Shown here: piece by piece, positions 46,727 through 50,419 of the stretch
How the letters are laid out: each line of letters begins with the position of its first letter
Numbering within the stretch: position 1 is the stretch's first letter
Source of the DNA: an uncultured Opitutia bacterium
Lineage (GTDB): Bacteria > Verrucomicrobiota > Verrucomicrobiia > Opitutales > Opitutaceae
Direction of reading: 5' to 3'
Assembly: GCA_903877135.1 (NCBI GenBank)
Contig: CAIRCN010000022.1
Span: forward strand, 1 to 50,419
Length of the DNA: 50,419 bases
The notes under the pieces: model-generated
Told to the model about the DNA's origin: nothing
What the model saw: only the letters and a program-made list of their open reading frames with translations
Databases searched by the model: none
Translations under genes and position numbers: made by a program

Positions 46727-48772
<2,046 letters not shown>

Positions 48773-49014: not shown

Positions 49015-49089
49015 GCCCTCATCGTCTATCGGTTAGGACAGGAGATTCTCAATCTTCAAAGCGGGGTTCGATTCCCCGTGGGGGCGCCA
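49015..49089 (+). tRNA. tRNA-Glu (anticodon CUC)
   Basis: A full cloverleaf of 75 bases with encoded CCA. The acceptor stem pairs GCCCTCA with TGGGGGC; the anticodon arm is GGAGA-TTCTCAA-TCTTC, anticodon CTC, reading GAG; the T arm is CGGGG-TTCGATT-CCCCG with a standard loop. An integrase gene starts 121 bases after the 3' end on the same strand, so the tRNA 3' end is the probable attachment site of the island. Confidence 0.95.
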
Positions 49090-49145
49090 TTTTACCTCGT
49101 TACCTAGGAGGAGAACCGGGAGTTATAGGGTCAAATTGGGTGCTG

Positions 49146-49168
49146 TTGGTTTGAGGTCGTTTGAGGTT
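49146..49168. repeat. Short direct repeat between tRNA-Glu and integrase
   Basis: GTTTGAGGT occurs twice in direct orientation with one base between copies (49149-49157 and 49159-49167) in the 121-base gap between the tRNA and the integrase ATG. This is where integrase arm-type binding sites usually lie; the assignment is inference. Confidence 0.3.
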
Positions 49169-49210
49169 TTGCCTTGGCATCCCCCTTGCCCCGCCCCTAT
49201 CTCTTTCAGC

Positions 49211-50279
49211 ATGGCAACGACAAAGGAAATCTCCTTCCCCTACGAGGTAAAAGTCGGCTCGGCGGCTGGGACGATTTATTACACGAAGCACCCCTGCACC
49301 GCCAGCGGCATGATACATACTGCAAAATCAGGCAAATGGAGGTGCCAGCGCGCTAAGTTCGAGAAGGCGGAGAGCGAGCTAAAATTGTATCTCGCGAAAC
49401 TGAACGCAGGCGAGGTGGCCGCGGCTGGCATGACGAAAGAAGATCGCGACGAGTTGTTGACGCTGCGCAAACTAGCCGGGGATACGCCCCCGTCTGTAGC
49501 GATTAAGGAGTGGAAATACGAGCAAGACAGGCAGGCGGAGGCTCGGACCGGATGCACACCGGCGACGGTCGAGGATGTGATCGACCGATTCATCAAAGAC
49601 GGGGAGGCAAACGGTCGTCAACACGAGAGGACCTACCGGAGTAAATTGTCATCGTTGCTGCTCCCCACGGAGGATGATGGCACGGGAAATGATACCCGCC
49701 GGCCTACGAGGGACTCGTTCGTCGGACGCCACATTCACACGATCGCTAAGGAGGAATTGGCTGCCCGTCTGCAGGCCTTCCAGGACCACGTAACACGAAA
49801 TGATTACCGTAAAAAAGCAGGGACTCTTTGGGGCTGGGCGAAGGCGGCTGGGCACATCCCGAAGGACCGTGAACTCGCCCCCGGGGCCACGATGCGGGCG
49901 GTTGAAGGGGAAACAGACATCGAGATTTGCACCCCCGAGTCATACGCAAAATTGCTGATGTATATGCAAGATTACCATCCCCAATACCTCGCGGCAACGG
50001 TCCTCGCAGGCCTGGCATGGATGCGCGTTGAAGAGGTTAGTGGAAAGCGTGGGCGCAGGGAGCAAAGGCAGTTGTGGAGCGACATCCACCTAGACCCGGA
50101 TGTCGCAAAAGAGGATCCATTTTTGAATGTTTCATTCGCCAAAAGAAACACCCCGGCCAACAGAAAATGTCCGTTGCCTCCCGCGGCCGTGGCCTGGCTC
50201 AGAACGATCCCGGAGGCCGGCCGGACAGGCTATGTTTGTCCACGTTTCGCGCTGCAAAGGGTCCGTGCGATAGGGAAAT
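49211..50279 (+). pseudogene. Tyrosine recombinase / integrase, cut off at its 3' part
   Basis: Beginning at ATG 49211 (MATTKEISFPYEVKVGS), this reads as a phage-type integrase: an N-terminal arm region, a core-binding domain near residues 135-230 (VEDVIDRFIKDGEANGRQ, then HIHTIAKEELAARLQAFQDH), and the start of the catalytic domain with LAGLAWMRVEEVSGKRG near 272 (first catalytic Arg), QRQLWSDIHLD and FASP-like NVSFAKRNT. The reading stops being integrase-like at RALQRVRAIGK-type wording near 50270; the HxxR box and the nucleophilic Tyr are absent. The frame runs on to 50386 only through inserted DNA. The TTG at 49136 upstream is a less likely start. Confidence 0.75.
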
Positions 50280-50419
50280 TGTCACCGGCCGGGTTAAAAC
50301 CAGCCACGACGGGCCGGGTCAAAACCAGCCACCCTGAGGGGATGGTTTTCATGAGAGATAAGAGGTGGAGGACAAGGTCAAACTGAAGTGAGGACGCGAG
50401 CCAGCTAGGTTTGCCGCCC
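50280..50419 (+). mobile_element. Putative left end of an IS21-type insertion sequence (continues off window)
   Basis: Where the integrase homology ends, the sequence changes to TGTCACCGGCC (from 50280), followed by two near-identical copies of a 21-bp unit. A dinucleotide TG end plus repeated subterminal motifs ahead of an istA-like gene is the IS21 arrangement. A possible gene start follows (ATGAGAGATAAG at 50352), but its frame meets a TGA at 50384-50386, so the element's first gene is either displaced or damaged. The other end is outside the window. Confidence 0.5.
50287..50332 (+). repeat. Subterminal direct repeats, 21 bp, period 25
   Basis: GGCCGGGTTAAAACCAGCCAC (start 50287) and GGCCGGGTCAAAACCAGCC plus AC (start 50312) differ at one base. 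They are separated by GACG. Such repeats at the ends of IS21-family elements bind the transposase. Confidence 0.7.

Follow-up and report, generated by a model that had tools for sequence, protein, structure and literature searches.

An IS-cut integrase at a tRNA-Glu(CUC) island edge in an Opitutaceae draft genome, its probable far end, and an integrase family with asparagine at the HxxR histidine

The integrases of islands that target tRNA genes, such as those of P4-like elements and ICEs (Smyshlyaev et al. 2021, PMC8138268), offer the closest comparison for the locus described here. As far as the main text of that paper describes them, the two share an integrase at the 3' end of a tRNA gene, attachment (att) cores in direct repeat and accessory cargo. 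The locus differs from them in two respects: in its family of integrases, Asn replaces the first catalytic His and for the most part the second as well (Thr in 3 of 23), and the integrase can stand next to the tRNA or at the far end. According to the same main text, a His at the HxxR motif is the rule in tyrosine recombinases; the first His of the RKHRH pentad is less conserved in IntBPP-1, and IntDes has Tyr at that place. The family here is like these two in that the first pentad His is changed, here to Asn or Asp, a likeness drawn from the described residues only. The words "Verrucomicrobi-" and "asparagine" are absent from the main text of PMC8138268, and a literature survey by title or abstract start found no Asn-bearing integrase family of Verrucomicrobiota, which does not prove that the family is unpublished.

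The remaining components have well-described counterparts. The insertion sequence (IS) shares with the IS21 family its TG ends, repeated subterminal motifs, istA and istB, and a target duplication of 7-8 bp, and nothing about it is unusual; istA and istB of the copy studied here are predicted from relatives, and the inner genes are not in the draft. As in type III CBASS, a cyclase, HORMA and TRIP13 proteins and a transmembrane effector form one cluster, again with nothing unusual, and as in AbiL an AAA_21 protein is encoded alongside RloB, with nothing unusual seen. These are ordinary nested mobile elements, and the visible cargo consists of defence genes of known kinds and offers no new system. 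The integrase family is less usual: it is spread through Verrucomicrobiota, often lies directly 3' of tRNA genes and has Asn for the HxxR His.

The island edge and the truncated integrase

The window, that is, the whole stretch of DNA that was analysed, is an entire contig of 50,419 bp (C22) from a draft of 4,228,601 bases in 87 contigs, assigned to Opitutaceae (Verrucomicrobiota). Its right edge falls 140 bp into an IS. The features that concern us are:

46736-48772: ligA-like gene (named by eye), upstream of tRNA-Glu(CTC)
49015-49089, + strand: tRNA-Glu(CUC), the integration site (ARAGORN)
49067-49097, + strand: attL core, the tRNA 3' end plus 8 bases, 31 bp identical to C54:11100-11130
49211-50279, + strand: int1, a tyrosine integrase cut short before its NxxR box and Tyr (right limit set by the end of homology)
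50280-50419, - strand: first 140 bp of the right (istB-side) end of an IS21-family element, recognised from matching IS ends and from istA and istB in relatives
50284-50307, + strand: IS subterminal repeat 1
50309-50332, + strand: IS subterminal repeat 2

ARAGORN and the reading frames confirm the predicted tRNA-linked integrase: the likely start of int1, ATG 49211, begins 121 bases past tRNA-Glu(CUC). Int1 itself has no Pfam match at E values up to 1, and its identity as a tyrosine recombinase comes from the profile of its relatives and from their PF00589 matches. The closest integrase matches are from Opitutae and Opitutaceae MAGs (Verrucomicrobiota). Relatives match int1 over its whole length, and int1 stops before their [PK]-x-N-[CA]-[FL]-R-H box. 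In a 24-row alignment with these relatives, the box I Arg and the beta-hairpin Lys are present in int1, and homology ends at ...RVRAIGK, immediately before the family box N-x-[FL]-R-H and the Tyr. The original prediction had int1 losing HxxR and Tyr at a TG end; the truncation at the IS terminus at 50280 stands, but the box of this family is NxxR, not HxxR. The exact junction base between int1 and the IS is ambiguous, homology fading near 50279. With its second catalytic Arg and its Tyr lost, int1 is inactive, and we regard it as dead.

The loss of integrase homology coincides with the TG at 50280 where the IS begins, and relatives' copies of the element contain istA and istB, in agreement with the prediction of an IS21-like terminus inserted later into int1. 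Two subterminal repeats had been foreseen at a length of 21 bp; both are present, but they are 24 nt long, 92% alike and spaced 25 bp. Of 252 genomes of the family, 22 contain this IS end, the source genome among them. In other genomes, four copies retain both ends, which lie 2,552-2,625 bp apart, and the ends of relatives' copies are 84-85% identical to the window's. In the two relatives' copies whose frames were read, istA encodes 507-513 aa and istB 250-251 aa; PF01695 is matched by IstB of both, and in one of them (L133) IstA and IstB match NF033546 and NF038214. Judging from these relatives, istB and istA of the window's IS would lie beyond 50419, reading on the minus strand. Target duplications of 8 and 7 bp (ATAGCATC and GCTGCAA) flank two of the three relatives' copies that have both flanks, and the third (L136) has none. 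Within the draft, a CAATTGG target duplication joins contig C54 through the IS to contig C20, inside an IS1634 transposase.

The IS also marks where the assembly breaks. Its right end is 100% identical over 140 bp between the end of C22 and the start of C20, and the opposite (istA-side) ends, matching at 83% over 69 bp, close contigs C54, C81 and C42. Each of these five contigs terminates 139-140 bp inside the IS, which points to an assembly break at a multicopy IS and not to chance. That the break lies near a contig end could be taken to mean that the int1 junction is a misassembly and that no IS cut the gene. The junction is, however, 140 bp inside the contig, homology is lost where the IS begins, and a proper duplication flanks a further copy of this IS in the draft; we consider misassembly extremely improbable.

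A partner for the window's IS end was sought by target duplication, and neither the C81 nor the C42 flank fits. The other half of the integrase, expected beyond the IS in the original prediction, was likewise not found in the draft with int2 (described below) and an 87-aa C-terminal piece of a relative as queries; the search returned only int2 and weak matches to two other integrase-like frames, on C76 and C75. Under the check set with that prediction, this result speaks against it. Since the inner part of the IS is missing from the draft as well, contigs adjacent to the IS may simply have been omitted. PF01695 matches in the draft, on C15, C21 and C58, were considered as the inner genes of this IS and rejected: C15 and C21 encode IstB-like proteins with just 27-34% identity to relatives' IstB, too little for genes of the window's IS, and the C58 match is weak. 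As a separate observation, C81 is a 5.4-kb contig with a CRISPR-like array (L012, positions 29-710; 10 matches to one 37-nt repeat with at most 3 differences), its other end running into the same IS21 element.

The att copy, second integrase and defence genes on C54

The last 23 bases of the tRNA gene and the 8 bases beyond it recur as an exact repeat at C54:11100-11130. No other exact copy of the 31 bp was found outside C22 in the 4.23-Mb draft; after it, the att core is best matched by normal tRNA genes, that for Glu(TTC) on C45 and that for Gly on C39. A repeat of the tRNA-Glu 3' end, proposed at the outset as a sign of attR, is thus present at 31 of 31 bp, and the predicted integration of an island at tRNA-Glu is further supported by related integrases at the same tRNA in other genera. 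The att copy is oriented so that the island interior lies towards the low coordinates of C54. This side contains:

C54:1288-2595: AAA_25 protein
C54:3993-7289, - strand: type III CBASS cluster of 4TM effector, cyclase, HORMA and TRIP13 (PADLOC, Pfam, NCBIfam)
C54:7418-9459, + strand: AAA_21 and RloB proteins, with AbiLi and AbiLii as best PADLOC models
C54:9596-10969, - strand: int2, a full-length tyrosine integrase of 457 aa, reading into the contig interior

Because an integrase and cargo lie on the inner side of the att copy, both an attR and island cargo probably exist. Int2 starts 130 bases from the att copy and has every catalytic residue of its family (R, K, NxxR and Y). It matches the phrog_1 integrase at 6.3e-12 and has no Pfam match. 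A tblastn search with int2 at 1e-5 gave zero matches in 50,697 phage and 72,556 plasmid records; 47 related loci were found in IMG/VR contigs. The CBASS cyclase, HORMA, TRIP13 and effector genes are adjacent (models PDLC00808, PDLC00884, PDLC00914 and PDLC00724; PF18138; NF041116), and NCBIfam gave nothing for the HORMA protein or the effector. The original expectation of new accessory systems in the island is therefore half right: accessory systems are found at the far end, on C54, but they are of known kinds, type III CBASS and AbiL-like. Their position would tie a defence cluster of these two kinds to a mobile region in a little-studied phylum. Outside the att copy, C54 encodes a DUF2846 protein, a PEGA/PDZ protein, a weak heparinase-like match and an alpha-L-rhamnosidase, and this outer side leads through the IS copy to C20, a contig of 288 kb.

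The reading that we favour, and hold to be probable, is that one or more islands occupy tRNA-Glu(CUC), that int1 was cut by the IS, that the far end is most likely C54:1-11130 and that the region is probably not locked. Exchange by a tyrosine recombinase would have brought at least one island specific to tRNA-Glu(CUC) into the 3' end of the tRNA gene, which was presumably rebuilt from the att copy on integration. A multicopy IS21-family element would later have transposed into int1, depriving it of its second catalytic Arg and its Tyr. C54:1-11130, most likely the far end of the island or tandem array, would comprise attR, the inward-reading int2, the AbiL-like pair and the CBASS genes, and int2 could recombine attL on C22 with attR on C54. 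The draft has an integrase next to the 3' end of the tRNA and, on C54, that end again as a direct repeat; it is from this repeat that we infer the linkage of C22 with C54. A search for sequence joining the two contigs found none, and the start of C54 has no match beyond chance to other contigs of the draft.

The most likely layout is one attL-attR array across the gap, either one composite island that has integrases at both ends or two tandem islands. The latter arrangement, with an island A carrying int1 by the tRNA, an island B carrying int2 at the far end, a third att core in the gap and CBASS in B only, is compatible with the favoured reading, and we find it evenly poised. Separate islands would fit the low identity of int1 to int2 (31%) and the other genomes that have an integrase in just one of the two positions, next to the tRNA or at the far end; a third att core, on the other hand, is not seen in the draft, the gap lying outside the assembly.

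The att copy on C54 might instead belong elsewhere, for example if the island was split or moved or if the contig is that of another strain in the bin; the window's island would then end at some other place. C22 and C54 have no physical link in a draft assembled from fragments, and the right flank of C54 is without synteny support: it showed no match to the tRNA-Glu surroundings of the relatives fetched. A search for an empty site by the ligA-tRNA-Glu order found none, this order not being kept in the relatives fetched. Part of the right flank of C54 has a lower G+C (0.51-0.58 at C54:12001-15000, compared with 0.60-0.65 inside) and might itself be foreign. Yet all 31 bases of the att core match, including the 8 past the tRNA gene, an integrase of the tRNA-Glu clade flanks the copy, and the contamination estimate for the draft is 0.02. 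We judge such an origin to be unlikely.

The original prediction went further and took the locus as a single island frozen for good by the IS. Box II and the Tyr are indeed gone from int1, but a second integrase of the same clade, full length and with all the catalytic residues of its family, stands at the att copy. With int2 intact and in one tRNA-Glu clade with int1, the region is unlikely to be locked, and permanent freezing seems to us improbable. Any remaining mobility of the region would depend on int2, which looks complete from its sequence. An IS-broken integrase at an island edge need not, then, mean a dead island, for a second integrase of the same target clade is possible at the other end.

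An integrase family with asparagine at the HxxR histidine

Searched against PDB, the family profile matched XerD (6.1e-8), P2 (2.4e-7) and lambda (2.5e-4) integrases, and XerA integrases as well. PF00589 was matched by 14 of 20 relatives at E values up to 1, with a best value of 5.5e-10. The model of one relative (L177; pLDDT 88, pTM 0.61) has a predicted lambda-Int-like architecture, and aligns with lambda Int 1z19_B at Z 15.8 (rmsd 3.3 over 251 residues), with Tn1549 Int at Z 15.0 (3.6 over 255) and with Cre at Z 12.8 (3.8 over 242). The whole-chain rmsd between this model and full lambda Int is 15.1, because the domains sit differently.

In an alignment of 20 full-length relatives that includes int2 (A1; residues numbered as in int2), R285, K331, N404, R407, H408 and Y438 are invariant. 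The catalytic Arg, Lys, Arg and Tyr (R285, K331, R407 and Y438) are among these, and int1 retains the first two only. By profile, N404 aligns with the His of the XerD HxxR motif and a later Asn with the second His of XerD. The HxxR His is absent from the family, all 20 sequences having Asn at that place. On the strength of the profile, the fold and the remaining catalytic residues, we keep the family in the tyrosine recombinase superfamily as a variant.

Searches in which Asn was not demanded gave a similar picture. Five of 28 family loci are partial and without the box; in the 23 that were scored, the first place is Asn throughout, and the second is Asn in 20 and Thr in 3. A search of the phylum, restricted to the best matches and including int2 and several A1 integrases, yielded 30 loci, of which 22 have Asn at the first place, 7 have Asp and 1 lacks the box. 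A His lies one residue further upstream in six of the phylum loci listed, so the change may, in some lines, amount to a shift by one residue. The Lys column varies in wider sets (Gln, Asn, Thr and others), possibly through misalignment. The contig scan and one of two viral patterns demanded N-[CA]-[FL]-R-H, and Asn counts there are accordingly not evidence. Integrases of Verrucomicrobiota with Asn (or Asp) are collected in alignments A1 and A2 and at loci L076-L104 and L266-L295, often directly 3' of tRNA genes.

We tentatively propose, with a little less than even confidence, an Asn-active-site, tRNA-targeting integrase lineage in Verrucomicrobiota. Its members would have Asn for the HxxR His and mostly for the second His/Trp too, and would drive islands, some with defence cargo, across Glu, Pro, Gly, Leu, Ser and Arg tRNAs, with the integrase at either end and, at the tRNA-Glu of the window, probably at both. 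If the Asn active site works, these enzymes would be a test of how much change tyrosine recombinases tolerate at their catalytic histidines.

tRNA targets and islands in relatives

Among 23 integrase loci, tRNA-Glu(CTC) lies directly upstream on the same strand in four (L076-L079), tRNA-Leu in four and tRNA-Gly in two; L085 has a tRNA-Glu in the opposite direction, and twelve are without a tRNA. A larger sample from named records of the contig scan, the best 80 of 119 loci, overlaps the family loci and includes 8 with less than 200 bp upstream. Thirty of these 80 have a tRNA directly upstream on the same strand and 50 do not, the targets being Pro(CGG) in 7, Glu(CTC) in 6, Gly and Leu in 5 each, Glu(TTC) in 3, Ser(GCT) in 2, and Pro(GGG) and Arg(CCG) in 1 each. 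An exact repeat of the tRNA end inside the locus sequence was found in one of the 30 tRNA-linked loci, L200 (26 bp, 9.3 kb away). Taken by itself, L200 (8859-18195) is a candidate compact island, with tRNA-Glu(TTC), a related integrase and the exact repeat downstream.

In a tree of 36 rows, built from 24 rows of the family, among them int1 and int2, and from 12 of the 80 loci, int1 and int2 fall in one 10-row clade with support 100/99. The site is in view for 8 of the 10 rows, int1 and int2 among them, and is tRNA-Glu(CUC) in every case; L080 and L082 show none. This clade is not the only user of the tRNA, since tRNA-Glu(CTC) is also used by L155 and, at the far end, by L087. The placement of int2 in the tree is unsure because its branch is very long (2.21).

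Two single-contig genomes have an inward-reading integrase at the far end of an insertion at the same tRNA: G125, with a 20-bp exact core 86.4 kb from tRNA-Glu, and G062, with an 18-bp exact core at 22.9 kb. The first of these (G125:C1 3719659-3806163; L299-L302 and L320) is a putative 86-kb island that runs from tRNA-Glu(CTC) to the 20-bp copy, with its integrase at the far end. In another genus, the genome G016 (L110; G016:C10 42-4922) has copies of the tRNA-Glu end 4,799 bp apart, and this 4.8-kb insertion has an adjoining integrase-like frame that, by eye, is of another kind.
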